Assembly: GCA_009920665.1 (NCBI GenBank)
Contig: RFZL01000008.1
Coordinates: forward strand, 1-63,562
DNA length: 63,562 nt
Direction of reading: 5' to 3'
DNA from: Alphaproteobacteria bacterium
Lineage (GTDB): Bacteria; Pseudomonadota; Alphaproteobacteria; Puniceispirillales; Puniceispirillaceae
The translations under genes were made by a program, and so were the position numbers. Below, one piece after another: positions 1,939 through 62,987 of the stretch. The notes below the pieces were generated by a model. It saw only the letters and a list, made by a program, of their open reading frames with translations. It searched no databases and had not been told where the DNA came from. Numbering within the stretch: the stretch's first letter is position 1; every line of letters begins with the position of its first letter.

Positions 1939-2043
1939 CAGAATCGTCCCCACTGCCAGAACAGAACCAGAAAAGTTCACGCAGTATAGCCGAATTAGCC
2001 TTCGCGGGGTCAGGGATTCGTCTCGGGCAATGACCTTAGGACA

Positions 2044-2118
2044 ATGACGGGGCGTGGAATGACGGGGCGTGCGATGACAGGGCGTGCAATGACCGGGCGT
2101 GCATTGACCGGGCATGCC
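2044..2118. repeat. 15-bp tandem repeat, five copies
   Basis: Five consecutive 15-bp units close to ATGACGGGGCGTGCA fill the spacer between the divergent histidine kinase and rpmH genes. Units differ by one to three bases; the last begins TTGACC. The array ends 29 bp before the -35 box of the rpmH promoter. It could be translated only if the kinase began at 2154, which is unlikely. Confidence 0.9.
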
Positions 2119-30166: not shown

Positions 30167-30167
30167 G

Positions 30168-30206
30168 GAGATGATGGCTGGAGATGATGGCTGGAGATGA
30201 TGGCTG
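30168..30206. repeat. 13-bp tandem repeat, three copies
   Basis: Three perfect copies of GAGATGATGGCTG begin 1 bp after the hemC stop and end 19 bp before hemD. Each copy holds a GGAG-like/ATG context. Confidence 0.93.
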
Positions 30207-45643: not shown

Positions 45644-45954
45644 CATCCGCTCCATTGCTCATGACTGTTGTTCTGTTGCGATGGTGACACAGCCGGGCGC
45701 GGGACCGAAACCATTTAAGCATTTCCTCATACAAGGGGCGTCACGCCCCCTGCCTGGGAAGAATTTCCTCTATCCGGCCTGCCAGCGAAACCTGTTTTCG
45801 CCAGCATGCGCCGCTGCTGAAAAATCCGTGTATCGGCACCGGATATGGTGGATCGAATGCGTCATCGTCAACGAAACTGACAACCAGCTTTCAATTGCGA
45901 ACTAGGGTCCCGAACTAGGGTCCCGAATTATGGCCCGAAACAAAGGAGATACAG
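45644..45954. other. Spacer upstream of the peroxiredoxin gene
   Basis: The 311 bp between divergent genes contain no convincing gene. They hold a hairpin GGGGCG-TCA-CGCCCC (45735-45749) without a T-tract, a 13-bp tandem repeat (45898-45935) and a strong AAGGAG ribosome-binding site at 45943-45948 serving the peroxiredoxin. Confidence 0.55.
45898..45935. repeat. 13-bp tandem repeat, nearly three copies
   Basis: Two perfect copies of CGAACTAGGGTCC (45898-45910, 45911-45923) and a degenerate third, CGAATTATGGCC, lie 8 bp before the Shine-Dalgarno of the peroxiredoxin gene. Confidence 0.88.
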
Positions 45955-46648: not shown

Positions 46649-48490
46649 TCAGCCGCCGCCAAGCAGTTCATCGACCTCGCGGTGGCACTCGATGACATGA
46701 TCCTCGCCTTCGATGCGGCGTGGCGGGGCGGTGATATCGCACGTCCCCTCGATCGCCAGCGGGCAGCGGGCAAAGAACGGGCAGCCGATATCGGTCAGCT
46801 CGACGCCGCCTGTCATGCCGGTGATCGTCTCCTGGCTCGCCACCGTGTCCTCAAGCCAGCCGGTCCGCATTTCCGGCACCGAGGAGATGAGCAGCCTTGT
46901 ATAGGGATGATAGGGCGGCGACAGAACCTTGTCGGTCGGGCCCTGTTCGGCGACCCGCCCGGCATAGAGAACGACGATCTCGTCGGCAAAGGATGCGACG
47001 GTCGACAGATCATGGCTGATAAAGACAAAGGACACGCCAGTTTCGCGGCGCAGTGATTTCAGCAATTCGATGACATTGGCGCCGACGATTGTATCCAGCG
47101 CCGAAGTGACCTCGTCGCACAGAACAACCTCCGGCTCCGCCGCCAGCGCCCGCGCCAGGTTGATCCGCTGTTTTTGCCCGCCCGACAATTCATGCGGAAA
47201 GCGCTCGGCAAAGGGTGGCGGCATTTCCACCATCTCGAGCAGTTCATTGATCCGTTCGGCTTTCCGCGCGCCGGTCAGCCCGCCATAGAATTCCAGCGGG
47301 CGGCCAAGGATGTCATTGATTCGCTGGCGTGGGTTCAGCGCCGTGTCGGCCATCTGGTAGACAAACTGAACACGCCGCAATTCGTCCCGCGTGCGCGCCG
47401 CCAGATTTGGCGCCACCGGATGTCCGTCAAGTTCCAGATCCCCCGCGCTTGGCGGCAATAATCCGGCGAAGACACGCGCCAATGTGGATTTACCGCATCC
47501 GGATTCGCCGATGATGCCGACCGTCTTGCCGCGTTCGATGGCAACATTGACGTCGCGAAGCACCATCGTCTTCGGCGCGCCGTCAGCACCCTTGCCATAG
47601 CCGGCATCGATATTGCGTGCCACCAGCGCCGGTGCATCGCGCATATGCTCATGGTTGCTGGCCTCGCCAAGGCCGGGTTCGGGAAGGGGCTTGATCGCCG
47701 CCATCAGACGCTTGGTATAGGGATGTTCGGATTTGTGGATGATCGTCTCGACCGGACCGGCTTCCTTGATCTCACCATTATAGAGAACGACGATATGGTC
47801 GGCGACCTGCGCCACCACGGCCAGATCATGCGTCACATAGATGGCCGCCGCGCCCTCTTCCTTGATCACCTGCTTGAAGGCCTTCAGCACCTCGATCTGG
47901 GTGGTCACGTCAAGTGCCGTTGTCGGCTCGTCAAGCACCAGCAGGTCCGGCTCGCCGCACAGCGCCATGGCCGCCATCAGACGCTGTAGCTGGCCACCGG
48001 ATACCTGGTGCGGATAACGTGCCCCGATATTCTCCGGATCAGGTAGTTCCAGTGCCTTGTAGAGCGACAGCGCCTTCGCATCGGCCTGCTCGCGCGTCTT
48101 CGAGCCATGAATCACCGGCGCCTCGGTCACCTGCTCGTTGATCAGGATCGACGGGTTGAAGGTGGCGGCGGCACTTTGTGCCAGATAGGCGACCTTCTCG
48201 CCGCGAATGGGCCGTAACGCCTCGGTATCCATGGCGGTGACATTCTCGCCGTTCAGCAATGCCTCGCCGCCGGCGAATTTCAGCCCGGGCTTGCAATAGC
48301 CGAGCGCTGCCAGCGAGATGGTGGTCTTTCCGGAGCCGGATTCACCGATCAGCGCGACAACCTCACCGCGCCGGACCTTGAAATCGACACCCTTGACGAT
48401 GGGAAGTTCGGACCCGTCATCGCGGACCGCGTTGATCTTCAGGTCGCGGGCCTCGAAGATCACGTCATTCGAGTCGGATTTACGCGCCAT
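46649..48490 (-). CDS. Peptide/opine ABC importer, fused dual ATPase
   Basis: A 613-residue protein with two nucleotide-binding domains in one chain (DppD-DppF type). Domain 1 (about 10-265) has GESGSGKTT and [10 protein letters not shown]; domain 2 (about 290-550) has GESGCGKST and [17 protein letters not shown]-terminal oligopeptide-transporter tail with a Cys-rich stretch ([15 protein letters not shown]) follows. It lies 3 bp after the permease gene. Confidence 0.93.
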
Positions 48491-48493
48491 GGA

Positions 48494-49417
48494 TTAAAGC
48501 CTCTTTGACAGCTTGCCGCCGCTATGCGCGGATAGATCATCGACGATCAGGTTGATGGCGACGGTGAGGGTGGCGATGGCCAGAGCCGGTGCGACGACCG
48601 GAATGACCGAGGCGCCATAGGACAGCGCCCCCAGATTCTCGCGCACCATCGATCCCCAGTCCGCCTGTGGCGGCTGCACGCCAAGGCCAAGGAAGCTGAG
48701 GCTGGAGATGAACAGGATGACATAGATCAGGCGCAAGCCGAAATCGGTCAGCAACGGCATCGCGGCGTTTGGCCAGATCTCGCGCGTGATGATCCACCAT
48801 CGTCCCTCGCCGCGGACCCGCGCCGCCTCGACAAAATCCATCACCATGATTTCCTGGCCAAGCGCGCGCGCCAGCCTGAACACAACGGTGGCATAGATCA
48901 CGCCGGCGGTGATGATGAGCACCGGGATCGATGACCCGACCGCGGCGACGACGACAAGGCCAAGCATGATGGTCGGCAGGCTGAGGAAGGCGTCATTGAT
49001 GCGGCTGACGATCATGTCGACGCGCGGTGTGGAAATGGCTGCGCCGATGCCGAGGATAACACCGATGAAATAGGCGAGCACCGTCGCCATGAAGGAAATA
49101 CCGATGGTGCGACCGGCGCCATACAACAGCCGGCTGAGAACATCGCGGTCACTTTCATCAGTGCCAAGCCAGGCACCGGGACGCGGCAGCTGAAACTCGG
49201 AATAGTCATCCGGAAAGGGAAGCTCGTTCTCGCCTATCGGTGCCAGCCACGGCCCGAAAATGGCGATGAAGACCCAGAAACTAACCACAACAATGCCGAT
49301 CCAGCCAGTCCAGGACGGTTTGTAGCGCGTCGATGGCGCGGCGTCGGGAAGCTCGTCAAAGCTGACGCCGGTATCATAGGGCGCGACGTAATGCTCGTTC
49401 TGCCTGGCCTTGCTCAT
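48494..49417 (-). CDS. ABC importer permease, DppC type
   Basis: A 307-residue permease with an N-terminal TM helix, the OppC-N region and five further helices. The EAA loop reads VEAARVRGEGRWWIITREIWPN. Start overlaps the DppB-type stop by 4 nt. Confidence 0.92.
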   Translation of the reverse strand: MSKARQNEHYVAPYDTGVSFDELPDAAPSTRYKPSWTGWIGIVVVSFWVFIAIFGPWLAPIGENELPFPDDYSEFQLPRPGAWLGTDESDRDVLSRLLYGAGRTIGISFMATVLAYFIGVILGIGAAISTPRVDMIVSRINDAFLSLPTIMLGLVVVAAVGSSIPVLIITAGVIYATVVFRLARALGQEIMVMDFVEAARVRGEGRWWIITREIWPNAAMPLLTDFGLRLIYVILFISSLSFLGLGVQPPQADWGSMVRENLGALSYGASVIPVVAPALAIATLTVAINLIVDDLSAHSGGKLSKRL

Positions 49418-50364
49418 TTCGGATGCCTCAGCCTTGCGTTGGATGCAAAGGCCGCGATATCGGCGATCAGCATCAGGATGACATAGGTCAGGCAGAAGAT
49501 CATGCCAAGTCCCTGGATCAGGACATAGTCACGGGTCTGCACTCCCTGGACAATCAGCGTTGCCAGCCCGTTATAGCCGAAATAGACCTCGACCACGATC
49601 ACGCCGGTCACCAGATAGGCAAGATTCAGCGCCACCACATTGACGATCGGGCCGATGGCATTGAGGAGCGCATGCCGGAAGATGATGCGCCGCCGCGGCA
49701 CGCCCTTCAGGATCGCCATCTCGATATAGGGCGAACTCATGACGTTAAGCACTGCGGCGCGGCTCATCCGGATGAGCTGCGAGGCGATGACGAAACACAG
49801 GGTGGTGATCGGCAGCGCGAAATGTGCGATCAGCTCGAACAGACCCTTGCCCTCGGTCGATCCGACGACGATGGCATTGCCGATCCCCAGAACAAAGACA
49901 AACAGCAGCACAAGCAGCGTCGCGGTGAAGAATTCTGGCGCCGCGACGAGCGAGACCGACACCAGCGTCAGCACCCGGTCATACAGCGTGCCGGGATACA
50001 TTGCCGCCATGATGCCAAGCGCCAGCGAGATCGGCACACCGATGGCAGCGGTCAGCGCCGAGACAAAAACGGTGTTCTTGTAACGGTCGGCGATAAGGTC
50101 GGAGATTGGTACGTCACTGGCAAGCGAGGTGCCAAGATCGCCCATCATGAAATTTTTCAGCCAGACGAGATATTGCACAATATAGGGCTTGTCGAGTCCG
50201 AGTCGCGCCCGGAAGGCCGCGACATTTTCCGGTGTCGCCGACTGGCCAAGGCGGATTTGCGCGGCGTCGCCGGGCAGGATTTTCGTACCGAAGAAAATAA
50301 TCAATGAAACCGCCAGAACGGTCACAAGGCCGATTCCCAGTCGTTTCAAAATCAGGGAAGTCAT
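49414..50364 (-). CDS. ABC importer permease, DppB type
   Basis: A 316-residue permease with six TM helices. N-terminal LILKRLGIGLVTVLAVSLII and the EAA loop ILKGVPRRRIIFRHALLNAI are typical. I used ATG 50364; an ATG five codons earlier is less likely. A strong terminator separates it from the upstream binding-protein gene. Confidence 0.92.
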   Translation of the reverse strand: MTSLILKRLGIGLVTVLAVSLIIFFGTKILPGDAAQIRLGQSATPENVAAFRARLGLDKPYIVQYLVWLKNFMMGDLGTSLASDVPISDLIADRYKNTVFVSALTAAIGVPISLALGIMAAMYPGTLYDRVLTLVSVSLVAAPEFFTATLLVLLFVFVLGIGNAIVVGSTEGKGLFELIAHFALPITTLCFVIASQLIRMSRAAVLNVMSSPYIEMAILKGVPRRRIIFRHALLNAIGPIVNVVALNLAYLVTGVIVVEVYFGYNGLATLIVQGVQTRDYVLIQGLGMIFCLTYVILMLIADIAAFASNARLRHPK

Positions 50365-50377
50365 ATCGGGGCGCCCC

Positions 50378-50411
50378 AAAAAAAACAGACCCCGCCTTGC
50401 GGTGGGGCCTG
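50378..50411 (-). terminator. Terminator/attenuator between binding-protein and permease genes
   Basis: On the reverse strand CAGGCCCCACC-GCAA-GGCGGGGTCTG forms an 11-bp stem with one mismatch, followed by eight T. It lies 16 bp after the binding-protein stop and just before the DppB-type start, so it should make the binding protein more abundant than the membrane subunits. Confidence 0.9.
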
Positions 50412-50427: not shown

Positions 50428-52056
50428 TCAGGCGTCGTCGCGCCACAGGGTCACCGGTGCCTCGGCACCACCAAAATTGTTCAGCGGTACATAGGTCAGG
50501 CCCTTCACCTTGTCGGACACGGCGTCGACATAATTCCGGTAGAGCGGAATGATGCTGCCATTGTCATTGTGAATCTTTTCCTGAAGCGTGTGGTACATCT
50601 CCTTACGCTTGGCAGGATCGGTCACACCGCGGACCTCGACCAGAATCTTGTCGAACTCCGGATCCTGGTGATAGGTCTCGTTCCAGGCAGCATCCGACTT
50701 GAAGGCCAGTGTCATCATGATGTTGGCGGTCGGACGCATGTTCCACGACACGACGCACATCGGTGCCTTCAGCCATACGGCGCCCCAGTAACCGTCGGTG
50801 GTTACCTTCTGGACATCGATATTCAGGCCGATTTTTGCGGCCTCGCGCTGCAGGAACAGACACTGGTCAATGGCACCGGGGGCCACTTCGGAGGCGACGA
50901 TCGGCACGGTTGTGTTGCCGATGCCGGACTTCTCGAAATGGAACTTCGCCTTGTCCGGATCCATCATCCGCTGCGGGATGTCCGGGCTGTGGTCGAAATA
51001 GGCCGGTCCGATCGGATGGTCATTACCAAGCGAAGCCTGGCCCTTATAGACACCCTTCACAAGGCGCTGACGGTCCATCAGATATTTCATCGCCATGATC
51101 AGGTCATGATTGCCAGACATCTCCATGTCCTTGCGACATGCGATGTTGATATAGGCGGCCGAGTTCAGCGACCAGACATCCTTGCCGGGTGCTGATTCGA
51201 CCTGTGCGATCGCCTTTGGCGGCAGATTCACCATGGCGTCGACGTCACCGGCGAGGAAGGCATTCAGACGGGCGACCGGGTCACCGATGCCGAAATGCTC
51301 GATCTCGTCGAGATAGCCGCCTTCACCCCAGTAATTGCCATAGCGCTCACCAACAGTGCGGACACCGGGCTTGAACTCCTTGACCTTGTAGGGGCCGGTG
51401 CCGATTGCGGTCGAGAAATCGGTGGTACCGTCCTGCAGGATCTTGAAGTGGAAGGTGCCAAGAGCAATCGGAAGGTCGGCATTCGGCGAGGACAGGACCG
51501 CCTTTACCTCATAGTCATTGACCTTCTTCCATTCCTTTACCATGGCGACAAGTGACGAGGCGTTGGAGATGGAGTCCTTACCCATATGACGGTTCATCGT
51601 GTAGATGACGTCGTCGGCGGTCAGTGTCTTGCCATCATGGAACTCAACACCCTTGCGGATCTTGAAGGTCCATTCGGTGGCACTGTCATTCGACAGTACC
51701 TCTTCGGCAAGCTCGGGCTCGTAGCCGAGATTCTGGGTCAGCCGGGTCAGCGAACCGTAATACATCCGGCCGCGGAAATAATCGACAGCCGAGGTGAACA
51801 GGGCCGGATCAAGCGTGTCGTTCGGTCCGTGCTGGTCGCCGGCAAAGACGACACGGCCACCACGTTTCGGCGTGTTCGCCCAGACATCGGAGACGCCGGT
51901 GAACAATGTGCCGGAAGCAGCAGCAGTGGCGCCGGCAGCCATCATGTAGTGCATGAAGTCGCGGCGGCTGATGCCTTTCTTTATCATGTTCAGAAAATGT
52001 GCGCGGTCAGCTGGGCTCAGCGTCTCGAGCACGGGGTCGTTGCGCTTTTCAGACAT
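50428..52056 (-). CDS. Family 5 extracellular solute-binding protein, Tat-exported
   Basis: A 542-residue peptide/opine/nickel-type binding protein (SBP_bac_5). The signal is of the Tat type: SRRDFMHYMM at 30-39, then a hydrophobic Ala stretch and a likely cut after DVWA-60, preceded by an unusual 29-residue N-region. The body has ATEWTFKIRKGVEFHDGKTL, the classic family motif. Export in folded form may indicate a bound cofactor or fast folding. First gene of the importer operon. Confidence 0.92.
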   Translation of the reverse strand: MSEKRNDPVLETLSPADRAHFLNMIKKGISRRDFMHYMMAAGATAAASGTLFTGVSDVWANTPKRGGRVVFAGDQHGPNDTLDPALFTSAVDYFRGRMYYGSLTRLTQNLGYEPELAEEVLSNDSATEWTFKIRKGVEFHDGKTLTADDVIYTMNRHMGKDSISNASSLVAMVKEWKKVNDYEVKAVLSSPNADLPIALGTFHFKILQDGTTDFSTAIGTGPYKVKEFKPGVRTVGERYGNYWGEGGYLDEIEHFGIGDPVARLNAFLAGDVDAMVNLPPKAIAQVESAPGKDVWSLNSAAYINIACRKDMEMSGNHDLIMAMKYLMDRQRLVKGVYKGQASLGNDHPIGPAYFDHSPDIPQRMMDPDKAKFHFEKSGIGNTTVPIVASEVAPGAIDQCLFLQREAAKIGLNIDVQKVTTDGYWGAVWLKAPMCVVSWNMRPTANIMMTLAFKSDAAWNETYHQDPEFDKILVEVRGVTDPAKRKEMYHTLQEKIHNDNGSIIPLYRNYVDAVSDKVKGLTYVPLNNFGGAEAPVTLWRDDA

Positions 52057-52230
52057 AAATCCCCCCTATGTCCTAATTTGTTTGGAATTGAAAGCCTAAC
52101 ACGTATTTTTTGGGGGGTTCAACCGGACTGGCCGCTTCATTTGTAAAAAAAACGACCTATTGTCCTGTTTCAGACCTGACTTCAAGCCGTCAAACCGGCG
52201 GCAACCCGCCCGTCAGATCATGACATGACA

Positions 52231-52256
52231 GTTGTCATTGGTAGTTGTCATTGGTC
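52231..52256. repeat. 13-bp direct duplication
   Basis: GTTGTCATTGGTA is followed at once by GTTGTCATTGGTC, spanning the last codons of the cupin gene on the reverse strand and its 3' flank. Confidence 0.85.
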
Positions 52257-53045
52257 GCCGGAACGGGCGATTTCAGCCGGGGAGAGTGGCTCGCGATGTG
52301 TAACTTTCCAGCTGGAATCAGCCTGCCTTTGCCAGCAAACCCTGTCCCAGCTTCCGTCCGGCTGTTCTTCCCACCACCAGTTCTCGCCGGTCAGATCGCC
52401 GGTCCAGATATAGGCGATCAGGCAGGCCTCGTCATCGGTTTGCAATTCATGGACCTGATGCGGCGGCGTCACCGAATGGCCGCCGGCCTGAATGCGTTGC
52501 GCCGGCTTTGCCCGGCCATGGCGTATCGACACCGCGCCGGATAGGACATGGTAGATTTCCAGCGACGCATGCTGGTGAAGCGGATAGGTGACATGCGGGG
52601 CGAGAAGAAAGAGCCCCAGATACAGATCGCCACTTGTCAGAAGCCCGCGCCCGCCAATGATCTGGCCTGCCACAAGGCCTGTTGCCAGATTGCCGGGAAT
52701 ATCGTCGCCGTCGAAAATCTGATACCAGTCGACCCGGTCGAGACAGGGCCGCAAGGCGGTGGCGGCCGGCGTTGGTGGCATGGCGGCGGCAAGCGATGGC
52801 AGATAGCGTGACACGCTTGCCGGTAAATCACCGAACTGGGGATCGCTTGCCGACAGCGACCCCGGCTGGCATGACAGGTTCCGCAGATCACCGAGCAGCC
52901 GGTCGATCATCGCGGCATCAGTGGCGGTTGGCGTGATCGTGGCGGCAAGCGCGTCGGCGAGTGATGCCGACAGATCAGTATTGACGGGACTGATGGACAT
53001 GTAACGGGTATCTCGGGCAACCGGCCCGGCAAAACTCTTCGCCAT
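52248..53045 (-). CDS. Cupin DMSP lyase-like protein (DddL/DddQ/DddW family)
   Basis: A 265-residue cupin. The metal site reads HQHASLEIY: His157, His159, Glu163 and Tyr165, with His199 in HQVHEL, matching the HxH-x3-ExY...H arrangement of DddQ, where the His/Glu bind metal and the Tyr is the catalytic base. DMSP lyases of this group cleave dimethylsulfoniopropionate to DMS and acrylate. The Trp-rich C-terminus (about 222-246) is unusual. ATG 53045 or ATG 53000 is possible; neither has a good ribosome-binding site. Divergent from an EamA transporter. Confidence 0.75.
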   Translation of the reverse strand: MAKSFAGPVARDTRYMSISPVNTDLSASLADALAATITPTATDAAMIDRLLGDLRNLSCQPGSLSASDPQFGDLPASVSRYLPSLAAAMPPTPAATALRPCLDRVDWYQIFDGDDIPGNLATGLVAGQIIGGRGLLTSGDLYLGLFLLAPHVTYPLHQHASLEIYHVLSGAVSIRHGRAKPAQRIQAGGHSVTPPHQVHELQTDDEACLIAYIWTGDLTGENWWWEEQPDGSWDRVCWQRQADSSWKVTHREPLSPAEIARSGDQ

Positions 53046-53051
53046 AAAACC

Positions 53052-53095
53052 GCCGGTGTCAATCGCCGGTGTCAATCGCCGGTGTCAATCGCCGG
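53052..53095. repeat. 13-bp tandem repeat, 3.4 copies
   Basis: Three perfect copies of GCCGGTGTCAATC (53052-53064, 53065-53077, 53078-53090) and a partial fourth lie directly upstream of the cupin gene start, where its ribosome-binding site would be. Confidence 0.93.
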
Positions 53096-53201
53096 CATCC
53101 GGACCCGCGGCCGCCCCATGCCGGGTGCATAATTTTGTCGCACGCCGCCACGCACGGCTGTAGGCTGGCACCGGCAGAGTGCCTTGGGATGGTGGCGGCG
53201 C

Positions 53202-54173
53202 ATGAGAATGTCGATTTTTGAGCAGCCACAGGGCGACCGGCCGATGCTGGCGCTGGCACTGCTGCTGGTCGGGGTCAGCATCCTGTCGCTTCAGGATTCG
53301 CTGGTGAAGTTTGTCGCCCCGCACACCAGCTTCTGGCAGGTTCAGATCATCCGCTCCTCCTTCAATCTGGTGATGCTTGCCGGGCTTGCGATATTCACCG
53401 GCGGCATCGGCCTGTTATGGCCGCGCCGGCCGGGCCCGGCCATTCTGCGCGGTATCCTGCTGGCATTGTGCATGGGGTTTTTCTTCGGCGCGGCGCAGCA
53501 GATCACGGTGACGCAGATGGCCACCGGCCTCTATACCTATCCGCTGTTCGTCACCCTGCTGGCCGGGCCAGTGCTTGGCGAGCGTATCGGCCGCTGGCGT
53601 GTCGGCGCGCTGCTTCTTGGCGCGGCCGGGTGCCTGCTGGTGCTGAATCCGTTTGCCGATGCCTTCACGCCCCTGCAGGCCGTTCCGGTGCTGGCGGGGT
53701 TCTTCTATGCCTGCAATATCCTGGTGCTGCGGCGCTATTGCCGGAATGAAAGCCCGCTGGCGCTGGCCTGCATGGTGAACCTGTTGTTCATTGTGACCGG
53801 CATGGTCGGCGCGCTCGCGGCAAGCTGGCTTCCTGTTGATCCGGAATGGCGCGAGGCGATGCCTTTCATCCTGGTCGGCTGGCCCGAGGTTACCACCATC
53901 CTGCTTGGATTTCTGGCCATATTGGCGGTGCTGAACCTGTTCGGGAACCTGTTTCTCAGCCGCGCCTACCAGACGGCGGACAGCTCGCTTCTGGCACCGC
54001 TTGATTTCACCTATCTGCTTCTGATCGCCATCTGGGGCCGGGTGCTGTTCGACAGCTGGCCGACCCCGCTTGCGATCCTGGGCATGGTCATGATCGCGGC
54101 CGCCGGCATGATCACCGCCATACGCGAGCGCCGCCGCCCCGATGCGGTGCCAACGCCGCCACAAAGCGGCTGA
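53202..54173 (+). CDS. EamA/DMT family transporter
   Basis: A 323-residue protein with ten TM helices in two EamA repeats (about 15-145 and 160-300), typical of metabolite exporters of the drug/metabolite superfamily. ATG 53202 follows a GGTGG stretch; ATG 53208 is possible. It is divergent from the DMSP lyase-like gene, so a role in moving DMSP, acrylate or a by-product can be guessed but not shown. Confidence 0.85.
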   Translation: MRMSIFEQPQGDRPMLALALLLVGVSILSLQDSLVKFVAPHTSFWQVQIIRSSFNLVMLAGLAIFTGGIGLLWPRRPGPAILRGILLALCMGFFFGAAQQITVTQMATGLYTYPLFVTLLAGPVLGERIGRWRVGALLLGAAGCLLVLNPFADAFTPLQAVPVLAGFFYACNILVLRRYCRNESPLALACMVNLLFIVTGMVGALAASWLPVDPEWREAMPFILVGWPEVTTILLGFLAILAVLNLFGNLFLSRAYQTADSSLLAPLDFTYLLLIAIWGRVLFDSWPTPLAILGMVMIAAAGMITAIRERRRPDAVPTPPQSG

Positions 54174-58905: not shown

Positions 58906-58959
58906 ATGCCCGATCAGATTATAATGCCCGATCAGATTATAATGCCCGATCAGATTATA
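58906..58959 (-). repeat. Three perfect 18-bp repeats carrying TATAAT
   Basis: ATGCCCGATCAGATTATA is present three times without mismatch (58906, 58924, 58942). On the reverse strand each unit gives TATAATCTGATCGGGC, so three consensus -10 boxes stand in a row. The first unit also supplies the stop codon of the TPR gene, and the array lies about 165 bp upstream of the zinc-ribbon gene. Confidence 0.95.
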
Positions 58960-59542
58960 ATGGTTGTCCGCGAAGTTGCTGGCGAAGCTGTCTTGCGACG
59001 TCCATCGCCTGCTCAAGATGCGGGTTGACCTGCAACGCCGCTTCGAATGCCTGCAGCGCCCCTGCCGGATCGCCGTTGCGCAAACTGATCATGCCGAGGC
59101 CGCTCAGCGCCCCGAAATGCCGCGGTTCAAGGTCGATCACGCGGGCGATATCACGGCGTGAACCGGTATCGTCACCAAGCAGAAACCGCACGGTTGCGCG
59201 CTTGTTCCAGGCCTCGGCGAAATCTGGACGCTTATAGACAAGTTGGCTGAATATCTGTTCGGCGCCGTCAAGAACGCCCCGGCTCATCAGCGCCATACCA
59301 CTCTGCATCAGCCTGTCGGCATCGGCATCGCCGTCGGACGCGATCCAGCGTGTCCAGATTTCCGATGTCAGCTGTTCTGCCTCGGCGTGGCTGGTTGTCC
59401 GCGCAAGTTCGGTGAAGAGACGATCCAATGCCGGATCGGTCTGGTCGCCGGCGGCTGGCAATCCCCAGCCCATAATGATCAGGCATATCGCGACGCACGC
59501 CCCGGTGAAGCCGTTTCCACGGATTGAATCGCCGGAATTCAT
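58955..59542 (-). CDS. Secreted TPR protein
   Basis: A 195-residue protein with a signal peptide (about 1-32, ending GLPAAGDQ) and TPR-like repeats (about 80-190; IFSQLVYKRPDFAEAWNKRA, ALQAFEAALQVNPHLEQA). No enzymatic motif. ATG 59542 is chosen because it gives a good signal peptide; in-frame ATGs at 59557 and 59566 exist. The stop codon is inside the 18-bp repeat array. Confidence 0.75.
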   Translation of the reverse strand: MNSGDSIRGNGFTGACVAICLIIMGWGLPAAGDQTDPALDRLFTELARTTSHAEAEQLTSEIWTRWIASDGDADADRLMQSGMALMSRGVLDGAEQIFSQLVYKRPDFAEAWNKRATVRFLLGDDTGSRRDIARVIDLEPRHFGALSGLGMISLRNGDPAGALQAFEAALQVNPHLEQAMDVARQLRQQLRGQPL

Positions 59543-59755: not shown

Positions 59756-60046
59756 ATGACGCCACATATCCGTAATTCCACCATCACCCCGTTGCTGTCC
59801 GCAATGATGGTGAGCCCTTCATGGGCTGACCACAACCGGACCAGTGACCGGACCAGTGACCGGGCAAGTGACCGGGCGGATGACCGGGCCCTGCATACCC
59901 TTGCCGGCGGGCGCCATGACACCGGTCTGGTTATGCGGCAGACCGTGGCAGGATGGATGGTGGTCAACATTCTGTCCGGCCGCCGGTTCGACTGGCTGTT
60001 CGATCGGGGGCCATGCCTCGATAAAGCCCTGTCAGGTGCGCAATAG
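59756..60046 (+). CDS. Small hypothetical protein with Asp-Arg-Thr-Ser repeats
   Basis: A 96-residue frame with GAGG 6 nt before its ATG. A 12-bp repeat encodes DRTSDRTSDRASDRADDR at about 30-47; the rest is unlike known families. A possible signal sequence at 1-24. It may be a real small secreted protein or a chance frame. Confidence 0.35.
   Translation: MTPHIRNSTITPLLSAMMVSPSWADHNRTSDRTSDRASDRADDRALHTLAGGRHDTGLVMRQTVAGWMVVNILSGRRFDWLFDRGPCLDKALSGAQ
59837..59884. repeat. 12-bp tandem repeat, four copies
   Basis: CGGACCAGTGAC occurs twice exactly, then as CGGGCAAGTGAC and CGGGCGGATGAC. The 12-bp period keeps the reading frame of the small hypothetical gene. Confidence 0.9.
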
Positions 60047-60513: not shown

Positions 60514-61506
60514 ATGATTAAAGCGATAATTGTCGAACAGTCCGAGGACCGGACCGTTGCGGCGGCGGTCCGGGACATCGAGGTCTCACAGCTTCCCGAT
60601 GATGGTGACGTCGATATCGCGGTGGAATATTCCAACATCAACTATAAGGACGGCTTGTGTCTCAATGGCCTTGGCGGTCTCGTCCGCAATTACCCGCATG
60701 TTCCGGGAATCGATTTCGCCGGCGAGGTGATTGCCAGCCGCGACCCGAATTTCAAGCCCGGCGACAAGGTGATCATGGGCGGCCAGCGTGGTGGTGAGGT
60801 GCGCTGGGGCGGCTACGCAACCCGGGCCAGCGAGAAGTCGGAACGGCTTGTTCATCTTCCCGAAGGCATGACAACTCGGGAATCGCAGATGCTTGGCACC
60901 GCCGGTTTCACCGCGATGCAGGCGATCATGAGGCTTGAGGCGAACGGCATGGCGCCGGAGGGCGGCGAGGTTCTTGTCACCGGTGCCGGCGGTGGTGTCG
61001 GTTCGATCGCGACGGTGTTGCTGGCCGGCCGCGGCTATCAGGTGGCGGCGATGACCGGGCGCGCCGAAATTGCCGACTATCTGACTGGCCTTGGCGCGAC
61101 GCGAATCGTCAGCCGTGCGGAGATGGCCGATGATCCCGGCAAGGTGATGGAATCGGCCGTCTGGGGCGGCTGTATCGATTGTGTCGGCGGCCAGCTTCTG
61201 GCGCGCGCCATCAAGCAGATGAAGAATGGCGCCGGTATCGCCTCGCTTGGCAACGCCGCCGGCGCGACGATGAATGCCAGCATCATCCCGTTCCTGCTTC
61301 GCGGGGTCTCTGTCTATGGCATCGATTCGGTAACCGTGCCGTTGCCACAGCGGGCCGAAATCTGGGCCGCGCTGGCGGCCGAAATGCCAAAGGATGTGCT
61401 GGCCGGCATGTGCAGCGAGATCGGTCTTGGCGAGGTTATCGACCATGGCCGCCAGATTCTGGATGGCAAGGTACGGGGCCGTATTGTCGTTGATGTGAAT
61501 CGCTAG
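60514..61506 (+). CDS. acuI: Acryloyl-CoA reductase AcuI (YhdH/MDR family)
   Basis: A 330-residue NADPH-dependent medium-chain reductase of the YhdH/AcuI branch. NINYKDGLCLNG and PGIDFAGEV are in the catalytic domain; GAGGGVGSIATVLLAGRGY binds the nucleotide. AcuI turns toxic acryloyl-CoA into propionyl-CoA after DMSP cleavage. The following dddP gene, 152 bp away on the same strand, supports this role. Start by AAGG 9 nt upstream. Confidence 0.88.
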   Translation: MIKAIIVEQSEDRTVAAAVRDIEVSQLPDDGDVDIAVEYSNINYKDGLCLNGLGGLVRNYPHVPGIDFAGEVIASRDPNFKPGDKVIMGGQRGGEVRWGGYATRASEKSERLVHLPEGMTTRESQMLGTAGFTAMQAIMRLEANGMAPEGGEVLVTGAGGGVGSIATVLLAGRGYQVAAMTGRAEIADYLTGLGATRIVSRAEMADDPGKVMESAVWGGCIDCVGGQLLARAIKQMKNGAGIASLGNAAGATMNASIIPFLLRGVSVYGIDSVTVPLPQRAEIWAALAAEMPKDVLAGMCSEIGLGEVIDHGRQILDGKVRGRIVVDVNR

Positions 61507-61587: not shown

Positions 61588-61628
61588 ATTTAAAGGTCGC
61601 ACAGTTTTCCCGGTTGCAACGCAATCGG

Positions 61629-61652
61629 AATGATCAGGGGAATGATCGGGGG
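61629..61652. repeat. 12-bp duplication at the dddP ribosome-binding site
   Basis: AATGATCAGGGG is followed directly by AATGATCGGGGG. The second copy supplies the purine-rich GGGGG used as Shine-Dalgarno for dddP. Confidence 0.8.
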
Positions 61653-61658
61653 TGTGAC

Positions 61659-62987
61659 ATGGACCAGACCATCATAGGCTCCAACCGCAGGATCGACCCG
61701 ACAAGGCGGGCGCATCTGAAACCCGACCTGACACCGGACGATAATGACCGGGTTGAAATCGGCCCGACCGGGCTGGCATTCGCCGAATGGACGGCGGCCG
61801 GGCTGGCCGCCCCCGACATGCCGGCGCTTCGCGAATACAGGCTGTCGCGGCTGCAGGAACAGATCCGCCAGCATGATTGTGCCGGGCTGCTGTTGTTTGA
61901 CCCGCTGAACATCCGTTACGCCACCGACACCACCAACATGCAGCTCTGGATCGCGCATAACGCGGCGCGGGCCTGTTTCGTGCCGCCAGAAGGCGAGATG
62001 GTGCTGTGGGACTTCCATAATTGCGAGCATCTGTCGGCGCATCTGCCGCTTGTCGGCGAGGTGCGGCATGGCGCCAGCTTCTTCTATTTCGAGACCGGTG
62101 ACAGGACCGCCGACGCGGCGCGCCACTTTGTCGATGAGGTGATCTCGCTGATGCGCCGGCATGGCGGCGACAACCGGCGACTTGCCGTCGACAAGATCGA
62201 GCATGTCGGCTATGCGAATCTGATCCAGCAGGGGGTTGAGGTGCTGGAGGGGCAGAGGCTGACCGAACATGCCCGCTCGATCAAGAACGAGAACGAGGTG
62301 CGCGCCATGCGCTGCGCCATCCATGCCTGCGAGATGGCGGTCGATGAAATGCGGCTGGCGATGCGCCCCGGCGTGTCCGAGAATGAGATGTGGGCGGCGC
62401 TTCATGCCGGCAATATCAAGCGTGGCGGCGAATGGATCGAGACACGGATCCTGTCCTCCGGCCCGCGCACCAATCCCTGGTTTCAGGAATGTGGACCACG
62501 CATCATGCAGGAAGGCGACATGATGGCCTTCGATACCGACCTGATCGGCACCTATGGCTATTGCTGCGATATCTCGCGGAGCTGGATTGTCGGCGATGTC
62601 GCGCCAACCGACGAGCAGCGGGCGCTGTACCGCGTCGCCCATGATCATGTGATGACGAATATCGACCTCATCCGGCCGGGAATGAATTTTGCCGAGATGA
62701 CGGCAAAGGCGCATCGCCTTCCCGAAGCCTATCGGGCGCAGCGTTATGGCGTGATCGCGCATGGTGTCGGGCTGTGTGACGAATATCCCTGTGTCCGCTA
62801 TCCGGAGGATGTCGAGGCGCATGGCTATGAGGGCTGTTTTGCGCCCGGCATGACGCTGTGCGTCGAGGCCTATGTCGGCGCGGTTGGCGGGCGAGAGGGT
62901 GTCAAGCTCGAGGAGCAGGTGCTGGTCACCGAAACCGGCTGTGAGGTGCTGTCACGCTATCCGTATGAAGATGCGTTGCTGGCCTGA
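61659..62987 (+). CDS. dddP: DMSP lyase DddP (M24-fold)
   Basis: A 442-residue enzyme that cleaves dimethylsulfoniopropionate to DMS and acrylate. It has the creatinase/aminopeptidase fold but DddP-specific motifs: NDRVEIGPTGLAFAEW (29-44), FDPLNIRYATDTTNMQLW (80-97) and RTNPWFQECGPR (270-281). The metal ligands of studied DddP are all matched with a constant offset: Asp292, Asp294, Asp304, His368, Glu403 and Glu418. ATG 61659 follows GGGGGTG and gives the family length. Confidence 0.93.
   Translation: MDQTIIGSNRRIDPTRRAHLKPDLTPDDNDRVEIGPTGLAFAEWTAAGLAAPDMPALREYRLSRLQEQIRQHDCAGLLLFDPLNIRYATDTTNMQLWIAHNAARACFVPPEGEMVLWDFHNCEHLSAHLPLVGEVRHGASFFYFETGDRTADAARHFVDEVISLMRRHGGDNRRLAVDKIEHVGYANLIQQGVEVLEGQRLTEHARSIKNENEVRAMRCAIHACEMAVDEMRLAMRPGVSENEMWAALHAGNIKRGGEWIETRILSSGPRTNPWFQECGPRIMQEGDMMAFDTDLIGTYGYCCDISRSWIVGDVAPTDEQRALYRVAHDHVMTNIDLIRPGMNFAEMTAKAHRLPEAYRAQRYGVIAHGVGLCDEYPCVRYPEDVEAHGYEGCFAPGMTLCVEAYVGAVGGREGVKLEEQVLVTETGCEVLSRYPYEDALLA

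Follow-up and report, generated by a model that had tools for sequence, protein, structure and literature searches.

A cupin of the dimethylsulfoniopropionate-lyase family with a Trp-rich tail and a peptide-class importer as its conserved neighbour in Puniceispirillales

A gene for a 250-residue cupin lies at 52248..53000 on the minus strand of a 63,562-nucleotide stretch of DNA (contig RFZL01000008.1 of assembly GCA_009920665.1, in full; hereafter the window) from an alphaproteobacterium of the family Puniceispirillaceae, whose order, Puniceispirillales, we take to be SAR116. Its product is a real member of the dimethylsulfoniopropionate (DMSP)-lyase family PF16867, belongs to a distinct clade with a tryptophan (Trp)-rich tail and is linked, in this order, to an ATP-binding cassette (ABC) importer. 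The importer genes follow on the minus strand: 191 nt downstream of the cupin, a substrate-binding protein of the SBP_bac_5 (peptide/nickel) class, here SBP5 (50428..52056; PF00496, 225 bits), then a first permease (49414..50379; PF00528, 97 bits), a second permease that overlaps the first (48494..49417; PF00528, 95 bits) and a fused two-domain ATPase of the oligopeptide class (46649..48490; PF00005 twice, PF08352 oligo_HPY, 76 bits), the first permease and the ATPase standing in conserved order. On the other side an EamA/DMT-family transporter (53202..54173, plus strand; PF00892), whose likely start is the ATG at 53202 or 53208, diverges from the cupin, just as the first-pass annotation of this DNA had described.

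The cupin scores 71.4 bits against PF16867 (cut-off 27, E-value 9.8e-20) and only 21.5 bits against the ChrR-like Cupin_7 model (cut-off 27; both Pfam), so that it does not fall among the ChrR-like cupins; no NCBIfam model matches it at an E-value of 0.01. With residues counted from the ATG at 53000, motif 1 reads Y139-P-L-H142-Q-H144-A-S-L-E148-I-Y150 (52551..52586, minus strand) in alignment with DddQ, and His184 (52449..52451, minus strand) is aligned with the motif 2 metal ligand His163 of DddQ. The H-x-H-xxx-E-x-Y...H site proposed at first is thus present as H142, H144, E148, Y150 and H184. Together with Y139 these residues align with Tyr120, His123, His125, Glu129, Tyr131 and His163 of DddQ (Y139/H142/H144/E148/Y150/H184, in that order), all six of which are reported to be essential in DddQ (PMC4437653; papers given by PMC number are cited here from excerpts). 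The register of the DddQ residues is fixed, because the Protein Data Bank (PDB) entry 4la3, titled Y131A, lacks exactly that tyrosine in the alignment. Two tyrosines in motif 1 are described as typical of cupin DMSP lyases and not of other cupins (PMC5395565), and the cupin has both.

The fold agrees with this placement. The AlphaFold (AF2) model of the cupin (pLDDT, the predicted local confidence, 93.1; pTM, the predicted template-modelling score, 0.91) finds DddQ as its best structural match (Z 18.6, root mean square deviation 2.9, 186 residues aligned) and DddY as the second (Z 15.5, 222 aligned). The remaining structures among the matches listed reach Z 12.0 or less, ergothioneine dioxygenase being at 11.7, and DddK (Z 11.1-11.5) is level with unrelated cupins. 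The earlier proposal of a DMSP-lyase-family cupin, unrelated in fold to DddP, holds for family and catalytic set, and lyase chemistry is likely for this protein.

The first-pass annotation had also remarked on an unusual Trp-rich C-terminus; it is real and common to a whole clade. The extension comprises residues 206-238 (52287..52385, minus strand) and adds three strands in the model, while DddQ structures align only as far as model residue 210-211, leaving the tail uncovered. W209 and W210 are invariant in the 13 rows of this type in our alignment A1. A cupin is called W-type here when the open frame itself bears the Trp-rich tail; a match in G502 and one in G299, which reach the tail region only across stop codons, are not counted. 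W-type rows form one group with support 100/100, both in a first tree with 15 such rows and in a second with 18, which omits L104, L105, L107 and two G1184 genes; the trees use alignment columns with residues in at least 60% of the rows, so that most of the tail itself does not enter them. Three PDB rows of DddQ and L022, a protein of the order, form a clade of their own (100/98) that does not include the window cupin, and an identity with DddQ is hence not upheld. The cupin of G916, from outside the order, is sister to the nine W-type cupins of the order (98/89).

The six active-site residues were also compared with 36 other family members (alignment A2), chosen by us from loci of the order, of the class and of searches of the window's own genome, leaving out L029, L033, L034, L041, L044, L047, L053 and L054 (short, broken, odd or near-duplicate), re-fetched copies and matches without a locus. 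Equivalents of Tyr139, His144, Glu148 and His184 are found in all 36 of these non-W rows, that of Tyr150 in 33 and that of His142 in 29; in the other seven, which are exactly the clade holding L006, Arg replaces His142. L006 itself (G000:C113:41783-42037; 56 bits, over the cut-off) is a second PF16867 protein in the window's genome, with a TauE/SafE-family gene and a gene for a zinc-type alcohol dehydrogenase in its vicinity. Its clade, with Arg for the first His of H-x-H, is separate from both DddQ and the W-type, and L006 may be regarded as a candidate third lyase of this genome. The W-type cupin of L039 (G142) has Lys in place of the metal-binding Glu148 and a shortened tail. G888, a genome with five family matches, has a W-type cupin in tandem with a PF16867 protein of another kind (L137 7650-9042).

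PF16867-type matches occur in 37 of 136 genomes of the order, nine of which are W-type. Outside it, W-type cupins were found in four further genomes among 385 drawn from the class, in 5/14 genomes of family f109 (two already in the class draw), in at least five of 315 genomes of family f26, and in both genomes of the f26 genus g506, with three genes (one genome already in the f26 draw). The five counted f26 matches extend to model position 237-246 of 247, whereas no other among the matches listed goes beyond 221. A phylum-wide search with a 13-row profile matched 14/398 genomes, and apart from that of the window's genome these matches end at or before position 208 of 247, the tail lying at about 203-235. 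Plasmid searches returned family members at 28-37% identity, with no named DddL among the matches listed (the best 30 of 160, and 2/2).

Within the order, the conserved partner of the cupin is the peptide-class ABC importer. The SBP5 gene adjoins the cupin in eight of the nine cupin genomes, the ninth contig ending at the cupin, and two of the eight belong to another family, where the cupin is 44-45% identical; in two of the eight genomes the contig stops within the importer. An orthologous binding protein (at least 68% identity) is present in 11/136 genomes, eight of them among the cupin genomes (Fisher p 6e-10 over the 136 genomes, kinship ignored). Cupin and importer are also absent together. 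In G119 (same genus, 99% complete), EamA is directly followed by a glutamine-synthetase-like gene; the site lacks the cupin, the importer and two small genes, and keeps AcuI-DddP and the other compared genes, and neither the cupin nor an orthologous binding protein was found anywhere in this genome.

This bears on the neighbour that had first drawn attention. A DddP gene (61614..62987, plus strand; NF043017, 610.4 bits against a cut-off of 600; phmmer 4rzy, 2e-154) starts 8.6 kb from the cupin start, close to the 9 kb given before, and beside it, 7.5 kb from the cupin start, lies a YhdH/AcuI-family reductase gene (60514..61506, plus strand; TIGR02823, 379.5 bits, over the cut-off) that is below the AcuI equivalog (354.7 vs 440). 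The first-pass annotation had proposed two lyases in one neighbourhood; a second lyase in the genome is plausible, since the cupin is of the PF16867 family with the full catalytic set, but DddP as its functional partner is weakened, because G119 has AcuI-DddP and the flanking genes but neither cupin nor importer and because DddP is on another contig than the cupin in G130 and G131, where contig ends leave nearness possible. Nor was a sign of shared regulation with dddP found, no 8-, 9- or 10-mer upstream being common to at least four genomes of both the cupin set and the dddP set, a weak test with six and seven genomes. AcuI and DddP nearby probably serve DMSP independently. DddP, at 390 bits or more, is present in 58/136 genomes of the order; full-length copies score either about 650-867 or about 567-616 bits, with the window copy in the lower group, which the cut-off of 600 splits, and G111 and G075 each hold one DddP of each score group.

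The longest open reading frame of the cupin (52248-53075, minus strand) begins at a TTG at 53075, but the start is most likely the ATG at 53000, which matches the orthologue starts (located in nine genomes) and stands downstream of a TTGACA element found 57-66 nt 5' of the cupin start in 7/9 genomes. A 13-bp tandem array (53051..53095, unstranded) of 3.5 copies with 100% matches is present as first noted; it covers only the TTG of the longest frame, so that with the ATG as start it lies upstream of the gene and does not overlay its beginning. The unit of the array contains TTGACA, and the array consists of tandem copies of the stretch with the upstream element, which is thereby triplicated: minus-strand TTGACA begins at -88, -75 and -62 relative to the ATG, giving three copies in the window and one in each of the other six genomes. 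The conserved TTGACA, and with it the array, might have a promoter role, although a consensus scan gave no sigma-70 promoter there. In the 2.69-Mb assembly, a 19-base probe spanning the junction between units has no other site with one mismatch allowed. Short tandem arrays (units of 12-18 bp, two to five copies) are frequent in the window (2042-2117, 30167-30206, 45898-45939, 52230-52255, 58906-58962 and 59835-59890), and the one at the cupin is therefore not unusual in kind.

An importer also accompanies the W-type cupin in genus g506, where both genomes have, in sequence, a binding protein, two permeases, an ATPase, a W-type cupin and a Rieske oxygenase, with EamA divergent from the binding protein in G916 and a second Rieske gene upstream instead in G1184. 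This arrangement is not simple inheritance of the gene order in the window, because the binding protein of G916 shares only 28% identity with that of the window and the cupin stands at the other end of the gene run. Two W-type cupins lie about 3 kb apart in G1184 (L146 8869-13288), one within the importer gene run and the other preceding genes for a BhcC-like aldolase, an aldehyde dehydrogenase and a short-chain dehydrogenase. Among the five counted W-type loci of the f26 draw, an importer is near in G916 and G892, that of G892 being polyamine-type with an amine-oxidase-like gene, and a LysR gene also stands by this cupin. In one genus of family f109 the W-type cupin directly precedes a hydratase-like gene in 5/5 loci (L080, L082, L104, L105 and L107). 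The best models of this gene are 2-oxo-enoate hydratases at about 100-109 bits, below their cut-offs, and such an order would fit if beta-elimination by the cupin yielded an unsaturated product. AspC is upstream of the f109 cupin in the four loci that reach that far, and a BhcC-like aldolase gene (below cut-off) is near in 4/5 f109 loci, not being seen in the short L104, as well as in G1184.

The enzymes linked to the importer are mostly of the betaine/choline type. A choline-sulfatase family gene is importer-linked in G115 and G125 (597 and 590 bits, cut-off 433). G130 has a dimethylglycine/sarcosine-dehydrogenase-like (DMGDH-like) gene followed by TetR and old-yellow-enzyme-like genes, together with MttB (Pfam), and G131 and G133 have the same set less MttB, as judged by near-identical N-terminal sequence. 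The best model for the Rieske proteins of G916 and G1184 is GbcA, the glycine-betaine monooxygenase (185 and 191 bits, cut-off 670). In Ruegeria pomeroyi a further choline-O-sulfate transporter of unknown identity is said to exist (PMC12442346). Searching the PDB with SBP5 offered no hint of its ligand.

The reading preferred here, to which we give about half of our belief, is that the cupin would act as a lyase that depends on a metal and cleaves an imported methylated zwitterion by beta-elimination, and that it would lead a cassette for uptake and breakdown, formed by the cupin, the substrate-binding protein, two permeases and the fused ATPase, with EamA divergent. The importer would take up a small methylated onium zwitterion, whose carboxylate would be bound by one metal ion (Fe, Mn or Zn) on H142, H144, E148 and H184; Y150 would then abstract the proton at the alpha carbon, and beta-elimination would expel the sulfonium or ammonium group, as DMSP is cleaved in DddQ. 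The Trp-rich tail may contribute to an aromatic box that holds the onium head group. DMSP or its oxidized relative dimethylsulfoxonium propionate (DMSOP) is a possible substrate. Since the enzymes found with the importer in related genomes are mostly of the betaine/choline type, a quaternary-amine relative, e.g., a beta-alanine-betaine-type compound, is no less likely a substrate, and on context DMSP is not favoured as the main substrate. DmpX, the known DMSP binding protein, is of the OpuAC type with an aromatic box and has been reported from SAR116 (PMC10030565), so that import of DMSP need not depend on this cassette. A bolder and rather doubtful extension is that the importer-linked Trp-tailed cupins would be a new type of lyase, which, independently of oxygen and by the chemistry of DMSP lyases, would release trimethylamine instead of dimethyl sulfide (DMS) from a marine quaternary-ammonium compound with a carboxylate, such as a betaine-lipid head group or a beta-alanine-betaine-type compound, with the Trp tail as the onium box.

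Several observations weigh against the cassette. SBP_bac_5 proteins usually bind peptides or metal chelates. In G125, EamA and the importer are present with no cupin between them, and the importer must therefore have another use, G128 and G133 being uninformative on this point as their contigs end just after or inside SBP5. The gap between cupin and SBP5 is 176-235 nt in six genomes, which leaves room for a separate promoter. No importer stands beside the W-type cupin in G888, in G937 or in the visible part of G1118 (G1118 is near a contig end, with one side visible, and G888 has an ABC ATPase-like match about 5 kb off), nor in the f109 loci, G351 and the short G142 contig. The partner enzymes differ and choline-sulfatase-family genes are many-copied in the order, so that no single substrate is fixed. 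The active-site residues, conserved as they are in 29-36 of the 36 other family rows, do not identify a DMSP lyase and are no proof of lyase activity. Finally, DddP is present in 9/9 cupin genomes of the order (p 3e-4, kinship ignored), and in three genomes the two genes share a contig at a distance of 7-10 kb.

This last association speaks for the best surviving alternative, a true DMSP (or DMSOP) lyase that works beside DddP under other conditions or on the other of these two compounds and whose acrylate would pass to the AcuI-like reductase, encoded within 8 kb. We consider this alternative to have perhaps one chance in four, or slightly better. The full catalytic set and DddQ as the nearest structure agree with it, and all known DMSP lyases tested are reported to cleave DMSOP as well (PMC10686828). 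On the other hand, the cupin is outside the DddQ clade, the pair of cupin and importer is missing from G119 while DddP stays, the weak test for common upstream 8-10-mers was negative, and the importer is unlike the known OpuAC-type DMSP importer (PMC10030565). SAR116 is already credited in print with more than one type of lyase, namely dddL and dddP (PMC8547437), its strain IMCC1322 produces DMS from DMSP with dddP induced (PMC4304780), and its DMSP lyases are placed in subclades I and III in a study that had dddL among the lyase genes sought (PMC12262181). The mentions of dddL raise a less probable alternative, that the cupin is the very gene that the SAR116 surveys called dddL. Such surveys may have named other, commoner members of the family, present in 37/136 genomes with nine W-type, and the cupin domain of DddL, DddQ and DddW is described as C-terminal (PMC4437653), while this protein continues for about 40 residues beyond its DddQ-like part. 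A metal cupin with other chemistry on the family scaffold (a dioxygenase, an isomerase or similar), suggested by the enzymes of unknown function reported within the family, by ergothioneine dioxygenase among the structural matches and by the LysR and amine-oxidase-like genes of G892, is likewise improbable, as DddQ and DddY exceed the best other cupin among the matches listed by 3-7 Z units and both motif-1 tyrosines, said to be typical of cupin DMSP lyases (PMC5395565), are present.

Several lyases per genome are usual in roseobacters, which fits a second DMSP lyase beside DddP. The question matters because estimates of how much DMS the ocean produces draw on the numbers of cupin DMSP-lyase genes. 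If the W-type clade, in these DddP-bearing genomes, acts on another substrate, such numbers overstate the DMS potential of the bacteria concerned. If its substrate is DMSP or DMSOP, the enzyme would be a lyase that has an importer of its own, an arrangement described as uncommon for most DMSP lyases (PMC10030565). In either case the function of lyase-like cupins becomes testable, because the ligand can be sought with the binding protein of the importer. The open-access papers searched, as represented by titles, abstract openings and passages, gave no account of a clade with both the Trp tail and the importer linkage. The family reportedly includes enzymes of unknown function, according to the title of a survey by Lei et al. 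from 2018, which may describe the Trp-tailed clade.

Among known systems, DddQ of Ruegeria (PDB 4la2, 5cu1 and 4b29) shares with the cupin the fold, the N-terminal part and the six essential residues, and W199 of the cupin sits at the Trp of the 'LWRG' stretch of DddQ. DddQ differs in its 13-19% identity over the structural alignments, its separate clade and its lack of a Trp-rich tail, and we know of no importer linkage for it. DddY (PDB 5xkx and 5y4k) belongs to the same cupin superfamily but has about 400 residues and only a short match at the sequence level. The PF16867 proteins of unknown function are of the same family and have the same site; the Trp tail marks the clade of the cupin, and the importer linkage marks part of it. 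The DMSP importers DmpXWV and BCCT are comparable in that the partner genes, too, are proposed to bring in an onium zwitterion. DmpX is of the OpuAC type and its genes are reported not to be colocated with known genes of DMSP catabolism (PMC10030565), whereas the partner of the Trp-tailed cupin combines SBP_bac_5 with a fused ATPase of the oligopeptide class.

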